Shown piece by piece: positions 43,319 to 64,000 of a DNA stretch of 64,000 nucleotides (position 1 is the stretch's first letter; each line of letters opens with the position of its first letter). The stretch is from Streptomyces sp. RFCAC02 (GTDB taxonomy: Bacteria > Actinomycetota > Actinomycetes > Streptomycetales > Streptomycetaceae). Under the pieces are notes generated by a model. It worked only from the letters and a program-made list of their open reading frames with translations, was not told the DNA's origin and did no database searches. The stretch is taken from the NCBI RefSeq assembly GCF_004193175.1, contig NZ_SAUH01000001.1:5055501-5119500 (forward strand), read 5' to 3'. The translations under genes were made by a program, and so were the position numbers.

Positions 43319-44567
43319 TCACACGGCGTCCCGCTCCACCGGGCAGCTCATGCACCGCGGACCGCCCCGCCCCGGCCCAGCTCGCTCCCCGGGATTTCCA
43401 GCACCTCGAAGCCCTGCGCCCGCAGATGCTCGTTCGCCGTCACGGTCCGCTCGTACGCGATCACGACGCCCGGCTCCACCGCCAGCACGTTGCAGCCGTC
43501 GTCCCACTGCTCGCGCTCCGCCGCGTGCACGTCCTGCCACGGCGTCAGCACCCGGATGCGGTCGAGGCCCAGCGCCGCCGCGATCGCCCGGTGCATGTGC
43601 TCGGGCGCGTGGTCCGTGACCGCCAGCTCACTCCCGCCCGCACCCGGCTCGATGGTGTAGGAGCGCAGCATTCCGAGCCCCGCGTACTGGGTGAACGTCT
43701 CCCCGTCCACCATGGTCAGCACCGTGTCCAGGTGCATGAAGGCCCGCCGCTTCGGCAGGTCGAGCGCGACGATCCGCCGCGCCGAGCCGGCGGCGAACAG
43801 CCGCCGCGCCAGCAGCTCCACCGCCTGCGGCGTGGTCCGCTCGCTCATCCCGACGAGGACCGCGCCGTTCCCGATCACCAGCACATCACCGCCCTCGATC
43901 GTCGACGGCTGCGCACCGTGCCCCTCCGCCCAGTACCGGAACCCGCCGCCGTCCCCCGCGTGCCCCGGCCCTCGCCCGCGAACAGCGGGTGGTGGCCGTA
44001 CACCGCCTCGAAGTGCACGCTCTCCCGCTGCCGCGCCGGCCAGCGCATCGCGTTGATCGCCACCCCGTCGTAGACCCACGCCGACGCGTCCCGCGTGAAC
44101 AGGTGGTTCGGCAGCGGCGGCACCAGGAAGTCGTCGGGGGCCATCACATGGAACCGCACCGAGACCGGCTCCGGGTGCCGCTCAAGGTACTCCCGCTTGG
44201 TCATCCCCCCGATCAGCGCCTCGGCCAGCTCCCGCGTCGGGAGCCCGTCGAACGCCGCACGCAGCCGGCCGGTCGCCAGCGGCCCGTACTCCCGCTCGTC
44301 GAACACCCGGTCGAGCACCAGCGCGCGGGCCGCGGGGACCTCCAGCGTCCGTGCCAGCAGATCGCCGAACAGCAGCACCTCCACCCCCCGCTCCCGCAGC
44401 ACCCCGGCGAACACGTCGTGCTCCTCCTGCGCCCGCCGCACCCACAGCAGGTCGTCGAAGAGCAGGTCGTCCTTGTTGCTCGGCGTGAGCCGCTTGAGTT
44501 CCAGGCCGGGCCGGTGCAGGATCACGCGGCGCAGCCGTCCGGTCTCCGAGTCGACGTGGAAGGTCAT
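43319..44567 (-). pseudogene. arcA: Arginine deiminase, two frameshifts
   Basis: Would hydrolyse arginine to citrulline and ammonia. Three reading-frame segments join into a full-length arginine deiminase of about 416 residues: the first with LKRLTPSNKDDLLFDD and NHLFTRDASAW, the second with TIEGGDVLVIGNG and KRRAFMHLDTVLTMVD, the third with GRGGPRCMSCP. Breaks lie near 43962-43966 and 43366-43372; each is repaired by adding one base. Without the second repair the product lacks the catalytic Cys. The 1249-bp span is two short of a multiple of three, consistent with two deletions. Sequencing error cannot be excluded. Confidence 0.88.
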
Positions 44568-44666
44568 GCCCCCATTGGACCACCGGGACCGCGTCCGGCC
44601 GGGATCCGCGGAAAAAGCATTCGCACATGCATTGTCGTGCCCACGATCCCCGGGCAGGATTCCCCC

Positions 44667-45947
44667 GTGGCAGCAGCGCGCGAGAACACCGCTCCCGACA
44701 TCACCCCCACCACCCGCTGGCGGCTCATCGGCCCCGGCCTGGTCGTCGCGGCCACCGGCGTGGGCGCCGGCGACCTGGTGGCCACCGCCGTGGCCGGCGA
44801 ACGGTTCGGCTACACACTCGTCTGGGCGGCCGTCCTCGGCTGCCTGATCAAGATATCCCTGGCCGAGGCCACCGGCCGCTGGCACCTGGCCACCGGCCGC
44901 ACCATGTTCGACGGCTGGCAGTCCCTCGGCCGCTGGGCCGTCTGGTACTTCGCCGTCTACTGCGTCATCTGGGGCTTCGTCTACGGCGCGACCGCCATGT
45001 CGTCGAGCGGCCTGCCGCTGGCGGCGCTGTTCCCCGACGGGCCGTCACTGCGCACCTGGGGCATCCTGACCGGGCTGCTCGGCCTGGTCTGCGTCTGGTT
45101 CAACCGGTACGCGGTCGTCGAGAAGCTGATGATGGTCTTCGTCGGCGTCATGTTCGTCGTGGTCGTCGGCATCGCGATCCGCGTCGCGCCCGACCTCGGC
45201 GCGCTCGGCGCCGGCCTGTGGCCCACCCTGCCGGACGGCTCCGTGCTCTACACGCTCAGTCTCATGGGCGGCGTCGGCGGCACCATCACCCTCGCCGCGT
45301 ACGGCTACTGGGTCACCGCCAAGGGCTGGACCGGCCCCCGCTGGATCCCCATGATGCGGCTGGACAACCGCGTCGCCTACGCCACGACCGGCCTGTTCGT
45401 CGTCGCGATGCTGATCATCGGCGCCGAGCTGCTGCACTCCGCCGACGTCGCGCTGGCCAAGGGCGACCGGGGGCTGCTGGACGTCGGCGACGTCCTGGAG
45501 GACCGGTTCGGCGGGGCCACGGCGAAGCTGTTCCTGGTCGGCTTCTTCGCCGCCTCGTTCAGTTCGGTGATCGGCGTCTGGCACGGCGTGAGCCTGCTGT
45601 TCACGGACTTCGTCGGCCGGCTGCGCCCCGACGTGTCGGCGCGCGCCGCGTCGGACCGGGAGGGCGACCGGGAGAAGTCCTGGCCCTTCCGCGCCTACCT
45701 GCTGTGGCTGACGTTCCCGCCGATGGCGCTGCTGTGGCTGGACCAGCCCATCGGCCTCATCATCACCTACGGCGTGCTCGGCGCGTTCTTCATGCCGTTC
45801 CTCGCGCTGACGCTCCTGTGGATGCTGAACACCGACCGCGTCGCGAGGGAGTGGCGCAACGGCGTCCTGAGCAACGTGATGCTGGGCGGGGCGGGCGTCC
45901 TGTTCGTGGTGCTGTGCGTGCAGCAGGTGCGCGACCTGCCCTGGTGA
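44667..45947 (+). CDS. NRAMP-family divalent metal (Mn2+/Fe2+) transporter
   Basis: Integral membrane transporter of 426 residues with 10-11 predicted membrane segments. The first helix reads GPGLVVAATGVGAGDLVATAVAGERFGY. This corresponds to the NRAMP metal-binding helix, but the usual DPGN is GAGD here, so it belongs to a divergent NRAMP-related group whose substrate is less sure. Start is GTG at 44667 with GGCAGGA 7 bp upstream. Divergent from arcA. Ends inside a bidirectional terminator. Confidence 0.75.
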   Translation: MAAARENTAPDITPTTRWRLIGPGLVVAATGVGAGDLVATAVAGERFGYTLVWAAVLGCLIKISLAEATGRWHLATGRTMFDGWQSLGRWAVWYFAVYCVIWGFVYGATAMSSSGLPLAALFPDGPSLRTWGILTGLLGLVCVWFNRYAVVEKLMMVFVGVMFVVVVGIAIRVAPDLGALGAGLWPTLPDGSVLYTLSLMGGVGGTITLAAYGYWVTAKGWTGPRWIPMMRLDNRVAYATTGLFVVAMLIIGAELLHSADVALAKGDRGLLDVGDVLEDRFGGATAKLFLVGFFAASFSSVIGVWHGVSLLFTDFVGRLRPDVSARAASDREGDREKSWPFRAYLLWLTFPPMALLWLDQPIGLIITYGVLGAFFMPFLALTLLWMLNTDRVAREWRNGVLSNVMLGGAGVLFVVLCVQQVRDLPW

Positions 45948-48085: not shown

Positions 48086-48871
48086 ATGGGCGGGATCGTC
48101 GCGGGCATCGCGGGGGAATCGGCCGCGACCGGGGAAGCCGTGGTCACGGACACGCTGCGCATGCTGCTGACCGTGCTGTGCGGGTTCTTCTGGACACTCA
48201 CCTACGTGCTGGCGATCCGGACGGGCGTACGGGACCGCACCTACGCCGTCCCGATCGTCGCACTCGCGATGAACATCTGCTGGGAGTTCCAGTTCGTCTT
48301 CGTCCGGTCCACCGCGCACACGGCCGCCGCGACCGGCACCGCCCAGGCCGAGATCCTGATCGGCGCGGTCTGGTTCGTCGTCGACTGCGGACTCCTGTAC
48401 ACCGTGCTGCGCTTCGGCCCCCGCGAGTTCCCCTACCTCACGCACGGCCGGTTCATCGCCGCCTTCATCGCCGTGCTGGCCCTCGCCTACGCGGGACTCG
48501 ACATTGCCGCCCGGCAGTACGACGACGGCAAGGCCGTCCTGACCAGCTACGGCATGAACGTCGCCATGTCCGGCCTCTTCCTCGCGATGCTCGCCGCACG
48601 GCGTTCGAGCCGGGGCCAGTCGCTCGGCATTGCCGCCGCCAAGCTCGTCGGCACCGCGGCGGCCTGCGCCGGCTGGTACCTGGACCCGTCCACCCACCCG
48701 GGACCCTGGCTGCCCTTCTGCTCGATCGCCTGCCTCCTGCTGGACCTCGCCTACCTCCTCGCGCTCTCCGCCGTCATCCGGGCGGAGCGGGGGCCGGCCG
48801 CGCGCACGCGCCAGGCCCCGCTTCCGGGGACCGCCGTGACAGCGCCTCCGGAAGGGACCGACGTCACATGA
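48086..48871 (+). CDS. Integral membrane terpene cyclase (DmtA/Pyr4-like)
   Basis: 261 residues with seven predicted membrane segments. It resembles membrane terpene cyclases of the Pyr4/PaxB superfamily, used in bacteria by drimentine pathways (DmtA type). The two acids known to matter in that family can be placed: Glu67 in MNICWEFQF (Pyr4 Glu63) and Asp220 in CLLLDLAYLL (Pyr4 Asp218). Expected role: protonation-initiated cyclisation of a farnesyl chain attached to a cyclodipeptide. The stop overlaps the cyclodipeptide synthase start, which ties it to that pathway. Confidence 0.8.
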   Translation: MGGIVAGIAGESAATGEAVVTDTLRMLLTVLCGFFWTLTYVLAIRTGVRDRTYAVPIVALAMNICWEFQFVFVRSTAHTAAATGTAQAEILIGAVWFVVDCGLLYTVLRFGPREFPYLTHGRFIAAFIAVLALAYAGLDIAARQYDDGKAVLTSYGMNVAMSGLFLAMLAARRSSRGQSLGIAAAKLVGTAAACAGWYLDPSTHPGPWLPFCSIACLLLDLAYLLALSAVIRAERGPAARTRQAPLPGTAVTAPPEGTDVT

Positions 48872-49569
48872 CCGCAAGCAGTCCCGCACCCTTCGTCCCG
48901 GCCTTCACGACCGAGCCGCTGACGGACAACTGCGACCGCATCCTCAAGAGGGGGGACCACGCCCTGATCGGGGTGTCCCCGGGGAACAGCTACTTCAGCG
49001 AGAGCCGCATCACGGGACTCCTGACCTGGGCCGCCGCCCGCTGCCGCGCCGTGCACGTCATGATCCCGGACTCCGCGTTCACCCACACGCTGCTGGCCCT
49101 CGGGTACTCGCCCGGGCGGGCGCGGCGCAAGACGTCCTCCGAGGCGTCCCGCATCCGCAACCGGGTCGAACGCGCCGCGGCGGCCGCCGCGCTGCGCCCG
49201 GGCACCCTGACGGTCTTCCGGCTCGCCGAGATCGAGGCGTCGGCCGTCTACCGGGACCTGCTGCGGCGGGCGCAGGAGGCGTACCGCGACGACGCGGCGA
49301 CCCGCGACAGCGTCGCGCGCGTCGTCGCACCGGTCCTCCGGGGCCATCTGGACGGTGCGAGCCCGACGGCCGATCAACTGGACGAGGCCGCCGCCTACCT
49401 GCTGGCGGAGACGCCTCTCCTCCTGGACACGCCGGGCCTGCTGGGCGTGCCGAGCTCGGCGGGGATCTACCACCGGCACGTGGCGTTCATCGACGACATC
49501 TACGCGGGGAAGGTGGCGCTGAGCCGGAGCGAGCGGCAGGCGTTCATCGTGACCCGGCCCGCCTCATGA
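48868..49569 (+). CDS. Cyclodipeptide synthase, NYH subfamily
   Basis: Makes a 2,5-diketopiperazine from two aminoacyl-tRNAs; 233 residues, typical length. AlbC residues can be aligned one to one: nucleophile Ser37 in LIGVSPGNSYFS, Asn40, Tyr177 and Glu181 in AYLLAET (AlbC Tyr178/Glu182), and Tyr201-His202 (AlbC Tyr202-His203). Asn40, Tyr and His define the NYH subfamily. By analogy with DmtB proteins the product is probably a Trp-containing cyclodipeptide, but the pockets were not analysed. Overlaps both neighbours by 4 bp. Confidence 0.92.
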   Translation: MTASSPAPFVPAFTTEPLTDNCDRILKRGDHALIGVSPGNSYFSESRITGLLTWAAARCRAVHVMIPDSAFTHTLLALGYSPGRARRKTSSEASRIRNRVERAAAAAALRPGTLTVFRLAEIEASAVYRDLLRRAQEAYRDDAATRDSVARVVAPVLRGHLDGASPTADQLDEAAAYLLAETPLLLDTPGLLGVPSSAGIYHRHVAFIDDIYAGKVALSRSERQAFIVTRPAS

Positions 49570-50477
49570 GCGCCCGCGAACTCGACCTCGCCGGCATCCG
49601 CGAGCCGCTGCTGCGGGCGGCGTTCACCCGCTGCGAAACGATTCTTCGCACGGACGACCACGCGGCGCACTCCTGGCTGCGGAACCGCCTGCGCCCCGCC
49701 GTACGGCCGTACTGGGACGCGATGATCGCCTTCTGCGGCCACGCCGACGACCTGGCGGACGCGCCCGGCGTCGCTCCGGCGACGCGCCGGCGCCGGTACG
49801 ACGCGTTCGCCGCTTCGTTCTTCCGCGTCCTGGCGGCCGGCGACACGGCGCTCGCCGGGCCGGACGACGGCGACGACACCGGCGCGGGCCGTCTCGTCTC
49901 CCTCGCCTTCGCGCACTTCGCACGGACGTGGCGGCTGGACGAGGCGGGCATCCGCGAGGCGAGCCGGGCGCTGCGCGCCGACATGGACCGCTCCGCCTAC
50001 CCCACGCTGCGTGAGCTGGAGACGTACATGCACGGGGTGAGCGGGCAGCCGTCGCGCTGGCTCGCCGTCCTGCTGGAACCGGACGGCCGTCCGCCGTCGC
50101 GCGCGGCACAGCACGCCGCCGTCTCGTGGGGATTCGGGCTGCAGACGCTCGACTTCGTCCTCGACGTCGAGGAGGACACCCGCGTCGGCAAGGTGTACTT
50201 CCCGCTCGACGACCTGAGCGCGTGCGGACTCGGCCGCGACGACCTGGTGCGCGCCGTCGCCGCCCGGCGCGCCACCGGCCCGCTGCGCCGGGTCGTGGGA
50301 GCGCAGGTGGACCGCGCCCGTGCCTACTTCGCCACCGCCGGACGATGGCTCGCGGACGGGGACCGTCCGGGCTGGGCCCCGGTGCGCGCGTCACTGGCCG
50401 AGGGACTGCGCACGGCGGACCACATCGAGCGCTGCAACTACGACATCTTCCGCGCGACGACCTCACGGGACACGTGA
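49566..50477 (+). CDS. Squalene/phytoene synthase-like prenyltransferase (DmtC-like)
   Basis: 303 residues, all-helical trans-isoprenyl diphosphate synthase fold. First Asp-rich motif D61-D62-L-A-D65 (FCGHADDLAD) and second motif D196-FVL-D200-VEE-D204 are intact, so it should bind a prenyl diphosphate. Instead of joining two prenyl chains, DmtC-type members transfer farnesyl to the indole of a Trp-containing cyclodipeptide. Membership is inferred from the operon with a cyclodipeptide synthase and a membrane cyclase. Overlaps the synthase gene (ATGA). Confidence 0.85.
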   Translation: MSARELDLAGIREPLLRAAFTRCETILRTDDHAAHSWLRNRLRPAVRPYWDAMIAFCGHADDLADAPGVAPATRRRRYDAFAASFFRVLAAGDTALAGPDDGDDTGAGRLVSLAFAHFARTWRLDEAGIREASRALRADMDRSAYPTLRELETYMHGVSGQPSRWLAVLLEPDGRPPSRAAQHAAVSWGFGLQTLDFVLDVEEDTRVGKVYFPLDDLSACGLGRDDLVRAVAARRATGPLRRVVGAQVDRARAYFATAGRWLADGDRPGWAPVRASLAEGLRTADHIERCNYDIFRATTSRDT

Positions 50478-53554: not shown

Positions 53555-53567
53555 CCCCCACGGCTCA

Positions 53568-53581
53568 TGGAAGCGCTCCCA
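53568..53581. promoter_or_regulatory. CebR-type box upstream of the thiopeptide cluster
   Basis: TGGAAGCGCTCCCA differs by one base from the CebR palindrome TGGGAGCGCTCCCA seen intact before the xylanase gene. It lies directly downstream of the promoter and upstream of the ribosome-binding site, the place for a roadblock-type LacI repressor. Confidence 0.65.
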
Positions 53582-53593
53582 CGGGGAGGTGGC

Positions 53594-55474
53594 ATGCGAC
53601 CGCGACTACGTCAGGACGTCAGATTCGCCGAGGGCACGGACGGGGACGTCCTCGTCCACGGCGACAACGGAAGCTGCACCCTCCGGGGCCGGGGCGCGTA
53701 CCCGCTCCTGACCCGGCTGGCCCCGCTGCTGACCGGTGAACGCACCCTCGACGACCTCACCCGAGGGCTCCCCGGGCCGACACGGGACGTCATCACCGGG
53801 CTCGTGGACGCGCTCGCCGCCCAGGACTTCGTGGTGGACGCGCGCCCCGACCGCCCGCACACCCTCTCCGACGCCGAGACACGGACGTACGCCGACGAGA
53901 TCGCGTTCATCGCCCACGCGGTGGACTCGCCCGAGCACCGCTTCGAGCGCGTGCGGCGCGCCCGCCTCGTCCTCGTGGCCCACGCCCCGGCGGCCGGCGC
54001 CGTGCTGGACGCCCTGGTCGGCGCGGCCCTCACGGCGGGGTGGCGCGACGTGCGCGTGGCCGGCGCCGATCCGCTCCGCGTCGAGGACATCGCGCGCCGC
54101 GCCCGGCGCGACCCCGCCCAGTCGGTCCGTGCCCTGCCGGCGGACACCGATCCGTTCGCCGCCCTTCCCGGCACGGTCGTCCTGCAGGTGGCCACGGAGA
54201 CGGCCGACCTCGTCGACGGCTGCCGCGCCTGCCACCGCGGCGGCGCCGCCCTCGGGCAACTGCTCCTGCACCCCACCGAGGCGTGGCTGACGGAGGTCGG
54301 TCCACCCGCCCGCACACAGGCCGAGTCGGGCTGGCTCCGCCTGACCCCGCCCGCCGCCGGGGGACAGGCCGCGCCCGAGCTGCTGACCGGCTCCGTCCCG
54401 GCGCTGCTGGCAGGCCGGCTGACGCTCGCCGCGTTCTCCCACGTCACCGGCCTCGACAGACCCCGGCCGGCGGACGGTTCCCCGGCCGCCGTCCTGGTCC
54501 ACGTGGACCTCCACAGCCTCGACTCCGTCCCCCACCGGGTGGTGCCCCATCCCTCGGCCGTCGCGGTCACGGCCCCCGCCCGGCGGTCGCCGTCCGGCGA
54601 TGCGGAGATCCGCGCCCGGGTGGCGGAACTGGCCTCCCTGCCGCCCGTGCCGGCGGAGGAACTGCTGCGCCGCGCCGCCCCGCTCGTGGACGCCAGGACC
54701 GGACTGCTGCGCCTCCTCGACGAGGACGACCTCCCCCAGATCCCGCTCGCGGTGTGCCGCGCCGCGCTCGCGGACCGTGCCGCTCCCACGCTGCTCGGCT
54801 GGGGCACGGACCGTACGGAGGCACGCGCCCGCGCGGTCATGTCGGCCCTCGCCGCCCACGGGGTGGCCTCGGTGGACGGCGGCTCCGTCCTCGGCGTGGA
54901 GCCGGACACCGGCCGCCCGCGCGCCGTCCCCGCGAAGGCGCTGCGGGCCGTGGCGGGTACGGGCGTCGCGGGCGGCGCCACCTGGGCGGACGCACTGGCG
55001 GCGGCGCTGCGCGGAGCGTACGAGGGCGTGCTCGCGGAGCGCGTCGCGGCCGCCGGACCCACGGGACTCCCGCCGGCCGCGCCACTCCACGACGGCCTCA
55101 CCGGACGGGCCGCCGAGCTGCGCCGCCTGCTCGCCGCCGCCGGCGCCGAGCCGTCGGTGCGGGACCTGACGCCGCCGCTCGGGCTGCCCGCGTTCGCCTT
55201 CCTCCAGGCCGGCCGGACGGTCGCGCTGACGTGCGCCGCCACACCGGACGACGCCGTCGCCGACGGTCTCGAACGGGTGCTGGCGCGCTGGCAGACCGGC
55301 GACGGCGCCGCGACGGCCGGACCGGTGCCGTGGCCGGTCGGCGGCGACCCGGCGGCCGCCGTCCCGGTGCTGGCCGAGGCCCTGCGGCGGGCGGGCCGTG
55401 TCCCGGTGGCCGTGCCGCTGGCGGACGGCCACGCGCTGCCGTTCACCGTGGCGGTGGTGAGCGCCGATGCCTGA
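53594..55474 (+). CDS. Ocin-ThiF/RRE-type azole-forming partner protein (TbtF-like)
   Basis: 626 residues. The N-terminal 85 residues look like a PqqD-like RiPP recognition element (winged-helix type, from VRFAEGTDGDVLVHGDNG to VITGLVDALAAQDFVV). The rest resembles E1/ThiF-like partners of thiopeptide cyclodehydratases, without an obvious complete adenylation motif. These proteins bind the leader peptide and deliver it to the YcaO enzyme. ATG at 53594 with GGGGAGG 4 bp upstream is chosen over an ATG at 53567, which lies inside the CebR-type box. First gene of the cluster. Confidence 0.8.
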   Translation: MRPRLRQDVRFAEGTDGDVLVHGDNGSCTLRGRGAYPLLTRLAPLLTGERTLDDLTRGLPGPTRDVITGLVDALAAQDFVVDARPDRPHTLSDAETRTYADEIAFIAHAVDSPEHRFERVRRARLVLVAHAPAAGAVLDALVGAALTAGWRDVRVAGADPLRVEDIARRARRDPAQSVRALPADTDPFAALPGTVVLQVATETADLVDGCRACHRGGAALGQLLLHPTEAWLTEVGPPARTQAESGWLRLTPPAAGGQAAPELLTGSVPALLAGRLTLAAFSHVTGLDRPRPADGSPAAVLVHVDLHSLDSVPHRVVPHPSAVAVTAPARRSPSGDAEIRARVAELASLPPVPAEELLRRAAPLVDARTGLLRLLDEDDLPQIPLAVCRAALADRAAPTLLGWGTDRTEARARAVMSALAAHGVASVDGGSVLGVEPDTGRPRAVPAKALRAVAGTGVAGGATWADALAAALRGAYEGVLAERVAAAGPTGLPPAAPLHDGLTGRAAELRRLLAAAGAEPSVRDLTPPLGLPAFAFLQAGRTVALTCAATPDDAVADGLERVLARWQTGDGAATAGPVPWPVGGDPAAAVPVLAEALRRAGRVPVAVPLADGHALPFTVAVVSADA

Positions 55475-55522: not shown

Positions 55523-57496
55523 ATGACCGGTACGACGAGTGCCGTGCGGGCCACGGCGGCGGGTGAACGCGCCGCGCCGGTGACCGCGCTGGCGGGCACG
55601 GGCCGTCTGCACACCGCGGTCCGCGCGGCCCTGCGCACCGCCGGCCACACGACGGTCCCCGCGACGGCGTCCCACGGCGCGTCCGCGCTCGTCGTGGTCG
55701 CCGACACCGAGCGGGTGGCCGCCCCCGCCGCGCCGGACGTGCCGTGGCTGCCGGTGCGGGTGGACACCGGGTGGGTGTGCGCCGGGCCGCTGGTCCGCCC
55801 CGGCCGCGCGGGCTGCCCGACCTGCGCCGAACGCCGCCGCGCCGTGAACCGCCCCGACGCGGCCGGCCGGCGCGCACTGCGTGAACGGTACGGCGCCGAG
55901 GTGACCGCCCGGCCGAACACCCTCCTCACCCCGCTCATCACCGCCACGGTCGCCGCGCTCGTCACCGACGACATCGACCGCCTGCGCCACGACGCCGCAC
56001 CGCCCCGCACGGAGGGGGCCGTCCTGCGCGTCCGGCTGACGGACGGCCGCACTTCCCGCCACCTGCTGCTGCCCGACCCACTGTGCCCCGACTGCGGACG
56101 CCTGCCCGACGACCGGCCCGGCGCCGGCCGCCCCGAGCCGCGCCCCGTACGCCCCGCGCGCCCAGGCGGCCTCCGCGTCCGCGAACTCACCGGCCTCGAG
56201 GCCGAGCTGACCGGCCGCTACGTCGACGCCGAGACGGGCGTCGTGCAGTCCCTCGCCGACGGCCCCGACGGGGGAGCGGTCGCGGCCGTGGCACGGTTCC
56301 GCCCGGCGCTGGCCACCCGCGCGGGCCAGCACGGCTACGGCCGCGCCGCCGATCACGCCGCCGCGCGCCTCACCGCCCTGACCGAGGCCCTGGAACGGCT
56401 CGCCGGCATCCGTCCGCGCGGCCGTCGCACCGCCGTCCGGGCCGCGTTCGCCGACGTCGCCGACACGGCGCTCGACCCCCGCGCGCTCGGCGAGTACCCG
56501 GACGACTGGTACGACCGGCCCGGCGCACCGTTCGCCCGCTTCGACCCCGACCGGCCCGTCCCCTGGGTGTGGGGCTGGTCCTTCGCGCAGGGCCGGCCGC
56601 TGCTCGTGCCCGAGGCGTACGCGTACTACGGCCCCCGCCCCGCCGCCGAGCGGGCGCACCTCTACGAGACGTCGAACGGCTGCGCCCTCGGCGGCAGCCT
56701 GACGGAGGCGATCCTCCACGGCCTGCTGGAGGTCGCGGAACGGGACGCGTTCCTGACCACCTGGTACGCCCGGCTGCCCGCGCCCCGCGTCGATCTCGAC
56801 GCGGCCGCCGACCGGCGCGTCCCCGTCACCGCCGAGCACATCGGGCAGCGTCTCGGCTACGAGGTGACGGCCTTCGACACGACCCTGGAGCAGGGCGTGC
56901 CGGCGCTGTGGGTGGTGGCCGTCGACCGGGCGCGCGGCGCCGGCGGACGGCCCGCCCTGATGTGCGCCGCCGGCGCCCACCCCGACCCGGAACGCGCCCT
57001 GCTCGGCGCCCTCGTCGAACTCGGCCCCGCTCTCGCCGGCCTGCTCCGCCGCTACGACGCCACGGCGGCCGCACGCCTGGTGGCGGACGCCGACGCGGTG
57101 CACGGAATGGACGACCACGCCCTCCTGTACGGGCACCCGGACGCCGCCCGCCGGCTCGGCTTCCTCCCGTTCGACGGCCCGGCGCACCCGCCCGCGCGCC
57201 GGGCGATCCGCACCGACCCCGGCGACATCGGCGCCGGCCTCGCCGACCTCGTCGGCCGCTACCTGCGCACCGGCCTCGACGTCATCGCCGTGGACACCAC
57301 CGCGTCCGAGCACCGGGCCGGCGGTTTCCGCAGCGCGAAGGTCATCGTGCCGGGGACGGCGTCGATGACCTTCGGACACCGCCACCGCCGCGTCCACGGC
57401 CTGCCGCGCCTGCTGAGCGCGCCCCGCAGGCTCGGGCACGCGGACCGCGACCTGACCCCCGGCGAACTCAACCCGCACCCGCACCCGTTCCCCTGA
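55523..57496 (+). CDS. YcaO cyclodehydratase (TbtG-like, C-D fusion)
   Basis: ATP-dependent enzyme that turns Cys (and possibly Ser/Thr) of the precursor into azolines; 657 residues. The N-terminal third is an E1-like partner domain with zinc-type C98-PT-C101 and C188-PD-C191 pairs. The YcaO domain follows (about 235-650) with the ATP-site helices LTALTEALERLAG and LLEVAERDAFLTTW and the C-terminal Pro-rich end PHPHPFP that is typical of azoline-forming YcaOs. Starts 48 bp after the preceding gene. Confidence 0.93.
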   Translation: MTGTTSAVRATAAGERAAPVTALAGTGRLHTAVRAALRTAGHTTVPATASHGASALVVVADTERVAAPAAPDVPWLPVRVDTGWVCAGPLVRPGRAGCPTCAERRRAVNRPDAAGRRALRERYGAEVTARPNTLLTPLITATVAALVTDDIDRLRHDAAPPRTEGAVLRVRLTDGRTSRHLLLPDPLCPDCGRLPDDRPGAGRPEPRPVRPARPGGLRVRELTGLEAELTGRYVDAETGVVQSLADGPDGGAVAAVARFRPALATRAGQHGYGRAADHAAARLTALTEALERLAGIRPRGRRTAVRAAFADVADTALDPRALGEYPDDWYDRPGAPFARFDPDRPVPWVWGWSFAQGRPLLVPEAYAYYGPRPAAERAHLYETSNGCALGGSLTEAILHGLLEVAERDAFLTTWYARLPAPRVDLDAAADRRVPVTAEHIGQRLGYEVTAFDTTLEQGVPALWVVAVDRARGAGGRPALMCAAGAHPDPERALLGALVELGPALAGLLRRYDATAAARLVADADAVHGMDDHALLYGHPDAARRLGFLPFDGPAHPPARRAIRTDPGDIGAGLADLVGRYLRTGLDVIAVDTTASEHRAGGFRSAKVIVPGTASMTFGHRHRRVHGLPRLLSAPRRLGHADRDLTPGELNPHPHPFP

Positions 57497-57560: not shown

Positions 57561-60401
57561 GTGACCGAGCCCGAAGCACCGCCGCGCCCCGGCACCGCGC
57601 TGCGCGCCTACCTGCGTACGGTGCGGGACGCGCCGCCGCGCCCCCTGCCCGCCGGCGACGAACCGGCCGGCGCCAAGCACTACCCCGGCGCCCCCCGTGT
57701 CCCGCTGCCGGGCGGCCCGTCGCCCGCGTCCGCGCGGGACGGGGAAGCCGTCTTCCTGGGGGAGCTGCTGCACAACCTGGTCGGTGTCGTACGGGCGACG
57801 TGGTGCCACCCGGTGCCGTCGGCGGGCGGTCCCGCCGCCATGCCGCCGGTCGTGCTCGCGGGGCGGCCCGCGCCGTCGGGGGGCGCGCTGCACCCGATGG
57901 AGGCGTACGTGGCCTGCCGCCGCGACACGTACCCGGGTCCCGGTCTCCACCACTACGCGCCGGTCCACCACGCCCTGGAGCGGGTCCACGGCGGCGACCT
58001 GTCGGCCGCTCTCGCCGGAACGCTCCACCGGCCGCCCGCCGGACCGCCGGACGCCGTCATCGTCCTGACCGCCGTGTTCCGGCGCACGCTCGCCGGTTAC
58101 GGCGAGTTCGGCTACCGCCTCATCTGCCAGGAGACGGGCGTGCTGGCCGCGCAGGCGACGGCCGTCGCCGAGGCGCTGGGCGGGTGGGTGACGACGCACC
58201 TGTCCTTCGCCGACGAGGACGTGGACGCGCTGCTCGGCCTGGACGGCGCGCGGGAGAGCGGCATGGCGCTGCTCACCGTGTCGTTCCCGTCCGCCACGGC
58301 CGGGGGCGCCGTACGTCGCGACGCACCACCCGCGGGGAGTACGGCGCCCGCCGCGCCGCGTCCGGCTTCGCGGCCGGGGGAAACCGGGGTTGCCGGTCCG
58401 GCACCCGCTGTCGGCCCGGGCGCGGTTCCGCCGGGGGAGGGGACGTTGCCCGGCGCGGCACTGCCGGGCGGCCGGTCGGTGACCGGGGCACAGGGCGCCA
58501 CGGGTGCCGGTCTCGGCCCGTGGCCCGCGCGGGGCACGGTCGCCGCAGGGCTGAGGTCCGACGGCGGACATTCCGTCGATGCGTACCTGCCGGCCGATGC
58601 GGACACGACGGAGTCGCGCGCTGCCGCGACCGAGGCCGCCACGGGTTCCGGCGCGGCCACGCCGGAGCCGTCCGTGGAGGCAGGGGAGGGGGCGTTCGCA
58701 GGCGCGCCGTTCGTGGCCGGTGCCGCCGTCAGTGCCGGATCGACTCCATCGCGGGGGCGGTTCGAGCCCGGGGCGCGTGCCGCTTCGGGTCCCGGTTCGC
58801 GCGCCGGTCAGCCCACGGTCGCCGGTCCCGATGCGGCTGCGCCGGCCGTTCCGGCGGCGACCGGGTCGGGCGCGGCCCCGCGACTGGGCACACCACTCCC
58901 GCACGCGCCGGCGGACTCACCGGCCGAGGGCACCGAGGCCGATCCGCCGGCCGCGTCCGAGCCTGCTGTCGAGCGGTCGGCCATCGCGGCCGGGACCGGT
59001 GCGACGCTTCCGGGTGGTCTCTGCGTCTCCGGTCCGGGCGCGGCTTCGCGTCCCGCGCCGGAGCCGTCCGTGGAGGCGGGGGATGGGGCGTTCGCGGGCG
59101 CGCCGTCCGTGTCCGGTGCCGCCGTCGGTTCGAGCACGGTTGCGCCGGACGGCCCGGGCACCGATGTCGATCCGCCGGCCGCGCCCGGGCCTGCTGCCGC
59201 GCTGTGCGGTCCGGTCGTGTCCGGGCCGGACACGGCCGCCGCCCCGCCGGAGTCCGACGGCGGGTACGCCGCGGCTGCCGGTCTCGGTGCGGCGCTGCCG
59301 GCCGACCTCGCGGCCGTGACCTTGCACGCCGCGTCACGTCGCTTCCCCCGACAGGCCGTTCCGCCGTCCGCTCCCGGCGGCACGGCCCCGTCGGACACAG
59401 CCTCGCGTCCGGGGCGACCGTCTGCGGGGGAGGGCGTGGTCGCCCGCCTCGCGCCGGGGGCCTCCGCAGGCGCGGACGGTTCCGGAACGGCTCCGCCGGA
59501 CGGTCGGATCGAGTCCGAACGGCATACCGCTGTGCGTCTCGCTCCGCTGCCCGTGCCGCTGGACGAGGCGGCGATCACCGGCCCGCCGTCCACTGGCGAC
59601 GTCGGCGAGACATCGCGTCCCGGGCAGCCGTCCGCCGGGGAGGGCGTGGACACCCGCCTCGAGCCGGGGGGCTCTGCCGGCCCGTCGTCCGCGCCCGGGG
59701 CCGTCGGCCCGCAGGGCCGGGACGGTGCGGCCCCGGCGCTCCCGCTCCCGGCTCCCGCGCCGGTACGCCTCGCCGCCGGTGTGGCGGAACGCGTCTCCCC
59801 GGCGGCCGGTTTCCGTCCCGAACCGGTGTCACCGACCACTCTCGCCACCCTGCTGGCCGCCGCCACCGTGCCCCTGGACCTGTACGAGCCCGACCCCGTC
59901 ACCCTCCACCTGCTCGCCCTGCGCGTCTCGGAACTGCCCGTCGGCGCCTACCGGTACGACCCGCACCGGCACACGCTGATGGCGACCGGCGGCCCCGACA
60001 CCGTGACCGCCCTCACCACCGCCTCCCTGGCCGCCAATACACGTCTCGCCCTGCGCGGTGCCGCCCTGGTGCTCGTCCCCGTGGGCGATCCGCTGTCGGG
60101 CGTCGCCACCCACGGGGACCGCTGGTACCGCGTCCAGCAGGCCCGCGCCGGTCACGCCGTGCACCGCGCAACGCTCGCCGCGACCGCCCTCGGTCTCACC
60201 GCCCGGATCCACTCCGACGGCACCAATCCCGTCACCGACACCGCGCTCGGCGTGGCCGGCGCCGACGCGCGCGGCCTGTCGTTCCTCGCCGTCGGCCGGC
60301 CGCGCCTCGGCGGCCCGACCCTGACCCGCCGGCTGGCGCCGTTCCCGCGCGCCGCCGGCCCGCCCGACCCGACCGTCCCACCCCTCCCGCGCCCCCGCTG
60401 A
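57561..60401 (+). CDS. SagB-type azoline dehydrogenase with a giant low-complexity insertion
   Basis: FMN enzyme that oxidises azolines to azoles, 946 residues, about twice the family norm. A first nitroreductase half (about 1-245; PSGGALHPMEAYV, then GYRLICQETGVLAAQ) and a second half (about 735-946; PVGAYRYDP, then IHSDGTNPVTDTALG) flank an approximately 490-residue Pro/Ala/Gly/Ser/Thr-rich linker built partly of repeated units. TbtE-type dehydrogenases in thiopeptide clusters also contain two such halves, but not with this linker as far as I know. GTG at 57561 has GAGGAGG 7 bp upstream. Confidence 0.85.
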   Translation: MTEPEAPPRPGTALRAYLRTVRDAPPRPLPAGDEPAGAKHYPGAPRVPLPGGPSPASARDGEAVFLGELLHNLVGVVRATWCHPVPSAGGPAAMPPVVLAGRPAPSGGALHPMEAYVACRRDTYPGPGLHHYAPVHHALERVHGGDLSAALAGTLHRPPAGPPDAVIVLTAVFRRTLAGYGEFGYRLICQETGVLAAQATAVAEALGGWVTTHLSFADEDVDALLGLDGARESGMALLTVSFPSATAGGAVRRDAPPAGSTAPAAPRPASRPGETGVAGPAPAVGPGAVPPGEGTLPGAALPGGRSVTGAQGATGAGLGPWPARGTVAAGLRSDGGHSVDAYLPADADTTESRAAATEAATGSGAATPEPSVEAGEGAFAGAPFVAGAAVSAGSTPSRGRFEPGARAASGPGSRAGQPTVAGPDAAAPAVPAATGSGAAPRLGTPLPHAPADSPAEGTEADPPAASEPAVERSAIAAGTGATLPGGLCVSGPGAASRPAPEPSVEAGDGAFAGAPSVSGAAVGSSTVAPDGPGTDVDPPAAPGPAAALCGPVVSGPDTAAAPPESDGGYAAAAGLGAALPADLAAVTLHAASRRFPRQAVPPSAPGGTAPSDTASRPGRPSAGEGVVARLAPGASAGADGSGTAPPDGRIESERHTAVRLAPLPVPLDEAAITGPPSTGDVGETSRPGQPSAGEGVDTRLEPGGSAGPSSAPGAVGPQGRDGAAPALPLPAPAPVRLAAGVAERVSPAAGFRPEPVSPTTLATLLAAATVPLDLYEPDPVTLHLLALRVSELPVGAYRYDPHRHTLMATGGPDTVTALTTASLAANTRLALRGAALVLVPVGDPLSGVATHGDRWYRVQQARAGHAVHRATLAATALGLTARIHSDGTNPVTDTALGVAGADARGLSFLAVGRPRLGGPTLTRRLAPFPRAAGPPDPTVPPLPRPR
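58661..59131 (+). repeat. In-frame direct repeat pair A in the dehydrogenase linker
   Basis: A unit of about 75 bp at 58661-58735 recurs at 59057-59131 with few substitutions. The offset of 396 bp is a multiple of three, so both encode EPSVEAGxGAFAGAPxVxGAAV. A weaker repeat of the intervening Asp-Pro-Pro-Ala motif occurs near 58940 and 59168. Confidence 0.85.
59403..59670 (+). repeat. In-frame direct repeat pair B in the dehydrogenase linker
   Basis: About 58 bp at 59403-59460 recurs at 59613-59670 (offset 210 bp, in frame). Both encode SRPGxPSAGEGVxxRLxPG. Confidence 0.8.
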
Positions 60402-60519: not shown

Positions 60520-60702
60520 ATGTCCGACCACGAGTTCACCCTCGACCTCGACGGCCTGGACGTCGACACCATCGACGTCCTGCCGGCCGACTCCGTCATG
60601 ACCGAGGGCCACGGCGCCATCGAGACCGGCGCCTCCTGCTCCCCCGGCTACTGCTCCTGCTACAGCACGGCGATGAGCTGCTTCGTGCCGGAGGAGATCT
60701 GA
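60520..60702 (+). CDS. Thiopeptide precursor peptide
   Basis: 60 residues. Leader 1-38 is acidic and Leu/Asp-rich (FTLDLDGLDVDTIDVLPADS) and ends in TEGHGAIETGA, very close to the end of the thiomuracin precursor TbtA as I remember it (TAGHGMTEVGA). The core starts at Ser39-Cys40 and has 22 residues with 4 Cys (core positions 2, 7, 9, 16), 5 Ser (1, 3, 8, 11, 15) and 1 Thr (12), ending FVPEEI. Canonical Cys-Ser-Cys occurs at 7-9. ATG 60520 has AAGGAGA 7 bp upstream; a longer frame from 60451 is unlikely. Hairpins flank the gene. Confidence 0.92.
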   Translation: MSDHEFTLDLDGLDVDTIDVLPADSVMTEGHGAIETGASCSPGYCSCYSTAMSCFVPEEI

Positions 60703-60794: not shown

Positions 60795-63563
60795 ATGCCC
60801 GACCTGCCGCCGGCCACCGCCCCCGAGGACCGCACGCACCCCGCGCCCGGCGGCACGTCACCCGCCGGCGGAGTGCTGACCGCGCCGGACGCCCCCGCCG
60901 GCATCCGGCCGGAGGGCCGCGCGTACGTCGTCGCGCCGGTGTTCGGCGTCCGCGTCGCGGGGCTGCCCGTCGCCGCCGTGGAGTCGCTGCGCGCGCCGCG
61001 CGCCTGGGCGGCGGCCGACCGCCTGGCACAGGACGCGGCCCGGCTCGCCGCCGACGGCGCACGCCTCGCCGACACGCTGCACGACGCCATCGCCGACCCG
61101 TCCCGCGCGCCGGTCAAACCGCTCCTCGTGGCGCTGCGCCGCAGCCTGTTCACCGGCCGCAGGCCCACCGCCCGCAGTCTCGCCCCCGAGGTCCTCGCCA
61201 CCCTGCCCGACGGGCTCGCGCGCGGGATCCGCGGCTGGGACGAGCGGCGCCTCGCGCACACCGAGGAGACCGCGGCGCTGCCCGCGCTCCTCGCGGCGGA
61301 GACCCGCGCGGCGGACGGGGCGATCGCCGCCGCCGCGTCGGCGCCCGACTTCCGCCGCGCCCTCGCGCTCAGCAGCCCCACCCTCTCCGCCGACCTGGCG
61401 GACTGGCTGGCCGGTCCAGGCCGCCCCGCCGACCGCAAGGCGCGGCTCAGCCTCGCCCGGTACGTGGCGCGGGCCGCCGCCAAGACCAGCCCGTACGTGT
61501 CGTTCGCCTACAGCGGCTTCGGCCGGTGGACCGCGGCGGGACCCGCCGTGCGCACCGCCGACGACCTGTCCTGGCGCAGCGTCGTCGAGCTGGACCGCGC
61601 GCAGACCACCCGGCTGTGGGCCGCGCTGGTACGGTGCCCCGCCGTACGGGACCGCGCGCGGCTGCGCGTGAACCCGACCGCCTCGGACGACGGCATGCGC
61701 GTCTGGTTCCTCGCGGCGGGCACGGCGGAACGGCTCGCGGGCGTCCCGTCCACCGGTTCCGTCCGCCACGTCCTGGCCGAGGTGCGCGGTACGCCCGGCC
61801 TCACCCTCGCCGGTCTGCGGCAGCGGCTCGGCGGGGGCGCCGGCACCGCGCGGGGACTCGAAGCACTCATCGACGCGGGACTGCTCGAACTCCTGCCGCC
61901 GCACGGCGACCAGTGCCCGGACCCGCTCGCCGCCCTCGACACCTGGCTCGCCGGGACGCTGCCGCCCGACGAGCCGGAACGCCCGGCGCTCCTCGCGTCC
62001 GTGCGGCGGATCCGCGCGGCCCTGCCGCCCGGCGGCACGCCCGACACCGCACCGGCCGCCGCGCGCGCGGCGCTGGAGACGACGTTCACCGAGCTGACCG
62101 GCGCGCCGCCCCGCCTGCCGGAGAAGAACCTCTGCCTGGAGACGGCCGTCCTGCCGGGCACCGCGGCCCACGCCGCGCTCCCCGACTGGACGCCGGTCCT
62201 CGACGACCTGGACGCGGTGCGCCGCCTGCTGTCCGTCTTCGACCTCGAACTGCCCGTCAAACTGGCCGCCGCCGCCGACTTCGCAGCACGCTACGGGCCG
62301 GACGCCGTCGTCCCCGCGCTCGCCTTCTACCGCGCCGTGCACGCGGACGGGCAGGACGCCGCGCCGGAGCTGGCAGGCGGCCTCCGCGCCCTGCTGCACA
62401 ACCCCCTCGTCCCCCACCCCAGGACCCTGCTGACCAGCCCGGTGGCGCGGATGCGGGAGCTGGGCGCCGTCCGCAAGGAGGTCTGGTCGCTGCTGGGCGC
62501 GGGACCCGACGCGCGGCCGGCCCCCGTCCGCGTGGACCCGGACCTGCCGGCCCGGCTGTCGGCCGGCCGGCCCCCGTGGATCAGGGCGCTCGACTCGGTC
62601 TGCGCCTACGTCCAGCCCGTCACGGGACCCGACGGCCTGCGCGTCGTGCTCAACGCCATGACGGCCGGGCACGGGCGCGGCCTCGGACGGCTGCACCACC
62701 TGGTGGGGCTCGCCGGGGGAGAGGTCCCCGAGCCCGACGGGCTGCGCGCCCCGCCCGGCCCGGAACTGCGCGCCGAGTACCGGGGCGAACTGGCCAGCGC
62801 CCTCAACCTCCGGCCGCCCACCACCGACGCCGCGCTCGCCTACCCGTTCGGCGCGGGACCGGGCACCGGCGGCGCGCCCGAGCCGCCCCCGCTGTCCCCG
62901 GCCGACCTCACCGTGACGACCGACCCCGCGACCGGCCTGCTCACGCTCCGCGCGCCCGACGGCAGGCCCGTACGCCCCCTGCACCTGGGCCTCGTCGCCG
63001 AGCACTGGCTGCCGCCCGCCCTGCGCTTCCTGGTGCGCGTCTTCGGCGACCCGTCCACCGTGATGCCGCCAGGCTGGCTGTTCCGCGCCGGGGCCCGCGT
63101 GCCGGACGCGGGCGTCGTGGAGCGGTGGCCGCGGCTCGACGTCGGACGCGTCACGCTCGCCCGCGCCTGCTGGCGGCTGCGCGCCGGCGACTTCCCCGTG
63201 CCGGCGCGCGGCGAGTCGCAGGCGGCGCACCTGGTGCGGTTCGCCGGCTGGCTGCGCGATCACGGCGCGCCCGCCCGTTTCTTCGCCCGTGTCGTCGACC
63301 CGAGCGTCACCCTCGACGAGGGCATGCGCGACGGCATGCGCGACGGGCTGGTCGGGAAGGCCCGCAAACCGTTCTGGACGGACGCGGCCAGCCCGCCGCT
63401 GCTCGCCGGTCTGGTGCGCGCCGTCACCGCGGCGCCGCCCGGCGCGCTCGTGGTCCTTGAGGAGGCGCTGCCCGATCCGGCCGACGCGCCGCACCACGCG
63501 CACCACGGGCCGCGCGTCACCGAGTACCTGGTGCAGTTGTCCGCCGTGCGGGACGACCGGTGA
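60795..63563 (+). CDS. LanB-type dehydratase, glutamylation component (TbtB-like)
   Basis: Uses glutamyl-tRNA to glutamylate Ser/Thr of the core, the first step to dehydroamino acids; 922 residues. It resembles the Lant_dehydr_N domain of split thiopeptide dehydratases: VAPVFGVRVAGLPVAAVESLR near the start, LARYVARAAAKTSPYVSFAYSGFG near 220, and a C-terminal WLRDHGAPARFFARVVDPS region. No C-terminal elimination domain, which the next gene probably supplies. ATG 60795 with CAGGAGC 7 bp upstream. Overlaps the next gene by 4 bp (GTGA). Confidence 0.9.
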   Translation: MPDLPPATAPEDRTHPAPGGTSPAGGVLTAPDAPAGIRPEGRAYVVAPVFGVRVAGLPVAAVESLRAPRAWAAADRLAQDAARLAADGARLADTLHDAIADPSRAPVKPLLVALRRSLFTGRRPTARSLAPEVLATLPDGLARGIRGWDERRLAHTEETAALPALLAAETRAADGAIAAAASAPDFRRALALSSPTLSADLADWLAGPGRPADRKARLSLARYVARAAAKTSPYVSFAYSGFGRWTAAGPAVRTADDLSWRSVVELDRAQTTRLWAALVRCPAVRDRARLRVNPTASDDGMRVWFLAAGTAERLAGVPSTGSVRHVLAEVRGTPGLTLAGLRQRLGGGAGTARGLEALIDAGLLELLPPHGDQCPDPLAALDTWLAGTLPPDEPERPALLASVRRIRAALPPGGTPDTAPAAARAALETTFTELTGAPPRLPEKNLCLETAVLPGTAAHAALPDWTPVLDDLDAVRRLLSVFDLELPVKLAAAADFAARYGPDAVVPALAFYRAVHADGQDAAPELAGGLRALLHNPLVPHPRTLLTSPVARMRELGAVRKEVWSLLGAGPDARPAPVRVDPDLPARLSAGRPPWIRALDSVCAYVQPVTGPDGLRVVLNAMTAGHGRGLGRLHHLVGLAGGEVPEPDGLRAPPGPELRAEYRGELASALNLRPPTTDAALAYPFGAGPGTGGAPEPPPLSPADLTVTTDPATGLLTLRAPDGRPVRPLHLGLVAEHWLPPALRFLVRVFGDPSTVMPPGWLFRAGARVPDAGVVERWPRLDVGRVTLARACWRLRAGDFPVPARGESQAAHLVRFAGWLRDHGAPARFFARVVDPSVTLDEGMRDGMRDGLVGKARKPFWTDAASPPLLAGLVRAVTAAPPGALVVLEEALPDPADAPHHAHHGPRVTEYLVQLSAVRDDR

Positions 63564-64000
63564 ACGGCGACCCGCGCTGGGTCAGCGCGCACCTCTTCCA
63601 CGACGGCGACCTCGACCTCCTCGCGCGGCGCGTCGTGGCGCCCGTCGTGCACGAGGCGCGGGAACGCGGCCTGCTGCGGCGGCACTTCTTCCTGCGCTAC
63701 TGGGAGGGCGGCCTGCATGTACGGCTGCGCCTCCTGCCCACTGCCCCGGAGGCGGCGCCGGAACTGCGGCGGCTGGTCGGCGAGCGGGCCGCGGCCCACT
63801 TCGCCACCACGCCGTCCGTGCGCGCCATCGGCGACGAGCGGTACGCGGAACTCGCCGCCAGGATGGCCGCCGGGGAACGCCTCACCTCGTACGAGACCGC
63901 CCTGCGCCCGCCCGACTCCGTCGCCGACGTGCCGTACCGGCCCGAGTACGACGCGTACGGCGACGCGTCCTGCCTCGACCTGGTCGAACAGCACTTCACC
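63560..64000 (+). CDS. Thiopeptide-type LanB C-domain protein (elimination or pyridine synthase), cut by window
   Basis: 147 codons are visible, open to the window end. WVSAHLFHDGDLDLLARRVVAP and RRHFFLRYWEGGLHVRLRLL match the SpaB_C/thiopeptide-type biosynthesis domain. In related clusters this fold occurs twice: as glutamate-elimination enzyme (TbtC) and as [4+2] pyridine synthase (TbtD). Which one this is cannot be decided from the part seen; the other should follow beyond 64000. GTG start overlaps the upstream stop. Confidence 0.85.
   Translation, partial: MNGDPRWVSAHLFHDGDLDLLARRVVAPVVHEARERGLLRRHFFLRYWEGGLHVRLRLLPTAPEAAPELRRLVGERAAAHFATTPSVRAIGDERYAELAARMAAGERLTSYETALRPPDSVADVPYRPEYDAYGDASCLDLVEQHFT

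Follow-up and report, generated by a model that had tools for sequence, protein, structure and literature searches.

Which serine residues would be joined into the pyridine ring when a thiopeptide precursor offers no second serine at a familiar distance from the first? This question was raised by a 60-residue open reading frame in the window, the 64,000-nucleotide stretch of DNA analyzed here, which corresponds to bases 5055501 to 5119500 of contig C1 of the source genome (G000). In the accessible parts of two papers, natural ring sizes were given as 26, 29, and 35 in 2014 (PMC3917276) and as 26 to 35, with 32 for lactazole, in 2020 (PMC7210931), and ring size tracks the target, 26-membered rings going with the ribosomal L11 region and 29-membered rings with EF-Tu (PMC3917276; PMC7210931). 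An earlier note on this DNA had read the frame as a thiopeptide precursor with no standard ring size, and the analysis bore this out. It had derived the ring size as 3n − 4 from the position n of the second serine, and this rule agrees with the sizes reported for lactazole (Ser1/Ser12, 32-membered; PMC7210931) and the pyritides (Ser1/Ser6, 14; Ser1/Ser7, 17; PMC9247985).

The precursor and its gene set

The open reading frame was translated into MSDHEFTLDLDGLDVDTIDVLPADSVMTEGHGAIETGASCSPGYCSCYSTAMSCFVPEEI, and its ATG start codon is preceded by GAAGGAG. The translation agreed with the coordinates given in the earlier note, with its SC core start behind a leader end of the GxxETGA type, and with its core serines at positions 3, 8, 11, and 15. 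Residues S1-C2 of the core (SCSPGYCSCYSTAMSCFVPEEI) are located directly behind the leader end GHGAIETGA, and a second serine follows downstream, as in thiopeptide precursors. Cysteines occupy positions 2, 7, 9, and 16; the other residues are Pro4, Gly5, Tyr6, Tyr10, Thr12, Ala13, Met14, and the tail Phe17-Val18-Pro19-Glu20-Glu21-Ile22. The precursor scored 23.9 bits (E 3.1e-05) with the NCBIfam model thiazolyl_GetA (NF033399), below the curated cut-off of 29, and orthologues with similar leader and core were found in six other named genomes, each adjoining and upstream of a TbtB-like gene. Because of this match and these orthologues, the frame is beyond chance, and it is a real precursor.

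Table 1. Features of the thiopeptide locus, in coordinates of the window
Feature	Position	Strand	Remarks
TbtF-like ocin-ThiF protein, leader-binding partner of the cyclodehydratase	53567..55474	+	TIGR03693, 75.3 bits, far under the cut-off of 561.9; relatives in L017, L018, L019
TbtG-like YcaO azoline-forming cyclodehydratase with TOMM leader-binding region	55523..57496	+	PF02624, 272.7 bits; TIGR03604, 324 bits (cut-off 219.25)
TbtE-like SagB dehydrogenase, halves parted by a long low-complexity stretch	57561..60401	+	TIGR03605, 112.7 bits (cut-off 78.4); PF00881
Precursor peptide A	60520..60702	+	60 aa; leader, residues 1-38; core, residues 39-60
Core region	60634..60699	+	Ser1, 60634; Ser8, 60655; Ser11, 60664; Ser15-Cys16, 60676-60681
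TbtB-like Lant_dehydr_N protein, Ser glutamylation half of the split dehydratase	60795..63563	+	PF04738, 106.7 bits; 46-50% identity to L016-L021
TbtC-like elimination half (Lant_dehydr_C)	63560..64594	+	Window ends at 64000; L010:60-1094; PF14028, 118.1 bits
TbtD-like pyridine synthase	64591-65748		Outside the window; L010:1091-2248; NF045556, 469.6 bits (cut-off 325)

The precursor gene belongs to an intact, thiomuracin-like set in the order F-G-E-A-B-C-D (Table 1). This set matches that of thiomuracin, whose Tbt names and roles are used here. The first gene product is likely an ocin-ThiF protein, as judged from a weak model match together with orthology. The absence of a pyridine synthase gene past position 64000 would have spoken against the reading of the earlier note; such a gene starts 591 bases beyond the end of the window. 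The first of the two Lant_dehydr_C proteins reached only 65.3 bits with NF045556 and was thus assigned as the TbtC-like elimination protein. For the second, PbtD and TbtD were the closest solved structures (PDB 5WA3, 5W98; E 4.1e-57 to PbtD). One of its tyrosines aligns with the Tyr position occupied by Phe in PbtD entry 8ejz, and all 27 of 27 clade members have Tyr in this column (24 identified by pattern, 3 by reading). With a YcaO protein, its ocin-ThiF partner and a SagB dehydrogenase, a split LanB-like dehydratase, and a pyridine synthase, the locus has all the genomic features tested for a thiopeptide gene set and is predicted to be one, of the TbtD/PbtD kind.

The SagB-like protein aligned with its relative in L018 at query residues 10 to 271 and 661 to 937. 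About 470 residues, largely Ala, Gly, Pro, and Ser, separate these halves, compared to about 60 in the relative in L017. The insertion is in-frame and open, and no Pfam domain was found there; the one short repeat array of the gene (57694-57737) is outside the insertion. This long, odd insertion would fit a silent or degenerate cluster that yields only linear azole/Dha peptides, as would the clade synthases L079, L080, L086, and L096 without intact partners in the fetched stretch, and no product with this core is known from the literature searched, as far as its accessible text goes. Such a fate is nevertheless improbable, with all seven genes open and closely spaced and the TbtB/TbtC and TbtC/TbtD pairs overlapping by 4 bases each.

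Relatives of the precursor

As a single query against 5.8 billion proteins, the precursor returned only itself. Scanning of genome contigs with the TbtC-like protein yielded 11 loci, 6 of which, from Plantactinospora, Microbispora, Sphaerisporangium, and three Nonomuraea, carried a window-like precursor upstream of TbtB, TbtC, and TbtD relatives, the TbtD proteins being 53 to 57% identical to that of the window. An alignment of these six precursors and that of the window, used as the query, retrieved 26 proteins at E ≤ 0.1, among them the window precursor itself, and a second precursor alignment retrieved 33 at E ≤ 1. The precursor profile matched 4 of 396 genomes of the phylum, G000 and three weak ones (17 to 20 bits), and the window TbtD matched 6 of 394 genomes of the class at E ≤ 1e-70, again including G000. 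Pyridine synthases were matched in 181 of 394 genomes of the window's family, 30 of them above the cut-off, and at E ≤ 1e-50 in 56 of 297 genomes of the order of L017. From the family search, 31 loci were fetched for inspection of precursor patterns, and 60 from the order search; nothing was found by these patterns in many of them.

The core count comprised 36 distinct cores, 28 of the window family, which is common to the source genome, Microbispora, Nonomuraea, Plantactinospora, and others, and 8 of a sister type. P0028 was counted as n = 15 by reading, Ser14 of P0022 was taken as the closure homologue rather than the last S-C at Ser19, and P0031 and P0034 were assigned to the sister type by precursor similarity alone, with no TbtD tied to P0031. 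P0027 from Nonomuraea salmonea has an intact family leader with a core that is apparently out of frame, and it was excluded from the count.

Conservation of the candidate serines

Ser1 was required by the core parser, and the alignment also shows it kept throughout the window family. Counted by reading of the alignments, the homologue of Ser15-Cys16 was present in all 28 family cores and the motif around Ser8, Tyr-Cys-Ser-[Cys/Ser/Thr]-Tyr, in 26. The two exceptions, P0026 and P0029, contain S-C-[FY]-A-P-E and are precursors known without gene context, on contigs of 1,411 and 950 bases. Most cores have a distance of 14 from Ser1 to Ser15; P0017 (from L016) and P0024 exceed it by five, and P0022 and P0029 fall short of it by one.

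A serine at place 11 was found in the window alone among the 28 cores, with Leu, Met, Thr, Ala, Ile, Phe, or Cys elsewhere. A Dha1-Dha11 closure would give a ring of a standard size, the 29 members of GE2270, and the serine is indeed there, but its neighbors are Tyr and Thr. Being private to the window, Ser11 was rejected as the closure site; a 29-membered ring is hardly credible, in agreement with the doubt raised in the earlier note.

The spacing between Ser8 and Ser15 was seven in nearly all aligned members, including P0017 and P0024, in which the insert precedes Ser8. This constancy would suit a 20-membered Dha8-Dha15 ring, with residues 1 to 7 departing together with the leader. Such a closure is very improbable, since Ser1 is kept directly after the leader through the family and since the reading has no counterpart in the sister clusters L063 and L072, whose cores contain Ser1 and a single further serine.

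A closure between Dha1 and Dha8 within Thz7-Dha8-Thz9 would result in a 20-membered ring with a 14-residue tail. The motif is kept in most of the family, and Ser8 has azole-able residues before and after it, a context also present in the cores of L102, L117, and L121, which we take to be thiomuracin and GE2270 cores with closure inside C-S-C. In L016 and P0024, the same serine would yield a familiar 35-membered ring, and 20-membered rings were made by the Laz enzymes, at low efficiency (PMC7210931, as far as accessible). Against this stand the size, which is below the natural range of 26 to 35 given in the same paper, the missing motif in P0026 and P0029, the absence of C-S-[CST] from all 8 sister-type cores, and the lack of any role for the invariant Ser15-Cys16. 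Closure at Ser8 is therefore unlikely, although it is the alternative that deserves most attention.

Pyridine synthase trees and sister clusters

Two trees of TbtD proteins were calculated, a quick one with 75 rows and a careful one with 48. For the quick tree, 24 of 99 sequences were omitted by choice, with no measured threshold: 4 judged by eye to be incomplete or unusual (one of them containing a stop) and 20 that were apparently redundant by core label or score. In both trees, the window TbtD shared one clade with the family and the sister clusters (SH-aLRT 100 with 75 rows, 100/98 with 48 rows). Its nearest relative was that of L016 (90 and 96/90), and the support for the sister group as a separate branch was only 93 and 91/89, not starred.

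The sister cores of L063 (SCGHEFTRPCGSCGAPHDGELDEF) and L072 (SCGAFCICATISCQAPVAE) contain a single serine besides Ser1, and that of L070 (SCGHREVGFPHCGSCRAPYDGEHDES) contains one internal and one C-terminal serine. These internal residues, Ser12 in L063, Ser14 in L070, and Ser12 in L072, are each part of x-S-C-x-A-P and are preceded by Gly, Gly, and Ile, respectively. Relatives of all seven genes were present in L063 and L072 in the order F-G-E-A-B-C-D; in L070, the 19 kb that were fetched contained B, C, and D near the precursor but none of E, F, and G. Should these clusters form a pyridine, the closure partner of Ser1 would be the one internal serine. By sequence comparison, it is assigned as the homologue of the window serine in Ser15-Cys16-Phe-Val-Pro. 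Ser-Cys was present in 6 of the 8 sister-type cores, those of L099 and L103 being without it.

Outside the clade, 23 of 27 core-labeled rows of the 75-row tree contained C-S-[CS] (by reading), L087 and L097 C-S-T, and L101 and L113 neither. Since L101 has Leu-Ser-Cys, x-Ser-Cys is not confined to the clade. The clade synthases L079, L080, L086, and L096, with no intact TbtB-like gene in the fetched stretch, may be remnants or stand-alone enzymes. L071 goes with two short precursors, P0033 and P0034, of neighboring locus tags on one contig, for which a Ser-Cys closure would yield 23 and 20 members.

Probable closure at Ser15 and the predicted product

Of the two serines that the earlier note had put forward, Ser8 and Ser15, both remain candidates, and the comparison moved the preference from the "canonical" Cys-Ser-Cys of Ser8 to Ser15, because the sister clusters offer only the x-Ser-Cys-x-Ala-Pro serine and two family members are without the Ser8 motif. 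With Ser15-Cys16-Phe-Val-Pro being homologous to the sister closure candidate, the best reading is a closure of Ser1 with Ser15, which would probably give a 41-membered ring followed by a short tail, with the non-azole Met14 before the joining serine.

The residue before the Ser15 homologue in the 28 cores was Thr in 19, Met in 3, Asn in 3, Cys in 2, and Ala in 1, and Thr is likewise prevalent there in natural pyritides, whose enzymes close rings with no azole at all (PMC9247985). In vitro, rings of up to 62 atoms were closed by Laz enzymes (PMC7210931) and of up to 68 by Mro enzymes (PMC9247985), and lactazole is closed at Ser12 while its other serines become Dha (PMC7210931). On the other side, the C-S-[CS] pattern that dominates outside the clade is that of Ser8 in the window, and in L016 the Ser15 homologue would lead to a 56-membered ring, compared to the familiar 35 from its CSC serine. 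In lactazole, an azole just before the joining serine was needed (S11A abolished the product), and the Cys after that serine was dispensable (C13A was tolerated; PMC7210931); the window has Met before Ser15. With the Mro enzymes, Thr in front of the joining serine was no help, and 6 of 10 such precursors were poor substrates or nonsubstrates (PMC9247985). These statements extend to the accessible parts of both papers.

From the genes, their order, the orthology, the conservation, and the tree, all of which were observed, we infer the closure site and every chemical step of the following scheme. Glutamylation and elimination prefer serines preceding azoles. The YcaO pair and the SagB dehydrogenase would first convert Cys2, Cys7, Cys9, and Cys16 into thiazoles, and the split LanB pair would then turn Ser1, Ser15, and probably Ser8, each before an azole-able residue, into dehydroalanine. 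Dha1 and Dha15 would be joined by the TbtD-like enzyme in a formal [4+2] addition with loss of the leader amide and water. The product would be a 41-membered ring with Met14, a non-azole, adjoining the pyridine, an internal Thz7-Dha8-Thz9 motif, and the tail Thz16-Phe-Val-Pro-Glu-Glu-Ile. For lactazole, azoles have been taken to form first, with a similar sequence of events in thiomuracin (PMC7210931, accessible part).

The interpretation in the earlier note thus held for the precursor class and for Ser8 and Ser15 as candidates, and it failed where a comparison of masses was to separate a Ser1/Ser8 from a Ser1/Ser15 ring. These products are isomers, the formula for the computed mass contains no term for the closure site, and the product mass was rejected as a test because all closures are isobaric. 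For a product with four thiazoles and the complete tail, the computed [M+H]+ is 2212.737, 2194.726, or 2176.716 with a total of two, three, or four dehydrated serines or threonines, whichever serine is joined. The scheme itself, counting azoles, Dha, and the loss of leader amide and water, reproduced lactazole A at m/z 701.20 (2+) after three extra residues of the core sequence used had been removed by hand; this core has SCAQP at its closure.

Comparison with known systems

The likeness to the thiomuracin and GE2270 clusters covers the enzyme set, the leader end, and the precursor upstream of the pyridine synthase. The roles within both enzyme sets were presumed to be the same. The leader end GHGxxExGASC is shared, the precursor is upstream of the pyridine synthase as in L102, and this synthase is above the NF045556 cut-off. 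In contrast, the window core has its CSC at n = 8 and none at n = 10 to 14, and its TbtD is in a separate clade.

With lactazole A (LazA-F), the window shares a closure serine followed by Cys and an x-x-Pro tail, SCAQP compared to SCFVP, and the proposal shares the conversion of serines besides the closure pair into Dha (PMC7210931). Lactazole, however, needs Ser10 and Ser11 (an oxazole) before the joining Ser12, as described in the accessible part of that paper, whereas the window has Met14. The residue before the joining serine would thus not be azole-able for Ser15 but would be for Ser8, with Cys7. Moreover, residue 2 is Trp in lactazole and Cys in the window, and LazF is a fusion of dehydrogenase and elimination protein, whereas the SagB and TbtC-like proteins of the window are encoded by two genes. 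The pyritides (MroA-D) resemble the window in a non-azole residue before the joining serine, with Thr common there in nature, but their rings have 14 and 17 members and they are devoid of Cys and of azole enzymes, compared to a YcaO protein and four Cys in the window (PMC9247985, as far as accessible). The cluster deviates from the thiomuracin precursor model, the lactazoles, and the pyritides in a tested feature each and is therefore placed outside all three.

Ring size and neighboring loci

The gene set is of a known kind, and the predicted closure is what is new. Neither this core nor a natural 41-membered thiopeptide was described in the papers listed by the literature searches, which is weak evidence of absence because subscription papers were mostly outside its scope. 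The sequence comparison suggests a predicted ring larger than any natural one found described. If the prediction is true, the 41-membered rings of this family would represent a scaffold with no known target. Possibly, although with somewhat less than even chances, the whole clade of TbtD-like synthases recognizes x-Ser-Cys-x-[Ala/Val]-Pro near the C terminus as the address of the second serine, requiring neither a preceding azole nor a fixed distance from Ser1. Natural azole-bearing rings of 20/23, 32, 38, 41, and 56 members would follow, and ring size would evolve freely by loop insertion. In the sister branch, a single closure site occurs in natural variants of different length, which makes the choice of the second serine testable with natural substrates.

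The list of usual ring sizes in the earlier note may be incomplete, as several other fetched cluster groups would lead to n = 14 and thus to 38 members by the 3n − 4 rule. In other genomes of the window's family (L028, L029, L031, L033, L034, L037, L038, L039, L041, L043, and L055), the core SFCCAPPPNCCNCSCS recurs in identical form in the vicinity of TbtD-like genes, and its C13-S14-C15 would correspond to a 38-membered ring.

Near the thiopeptide set, an Nramp-like match was located within 43989-45947, and adjoining genes for a Pyr4-like membrane terpene cyclase, a cyclodipeptide synthase, and a squalene/phytoene synthase-like protein were found at 48086-50477. The latter region looks like a prenylated diketopiperazine cluster, presumably of the drimentine type. 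In G000, ten Lant_dehydr_C matches were counted, including TbtC and TbtD of the window. At other Lant_dehydr_C loci on contig C1 (L012, L013, and L015), small open reading frames resemble lanthipeptide precursors, for which we assume the name FxLD type.
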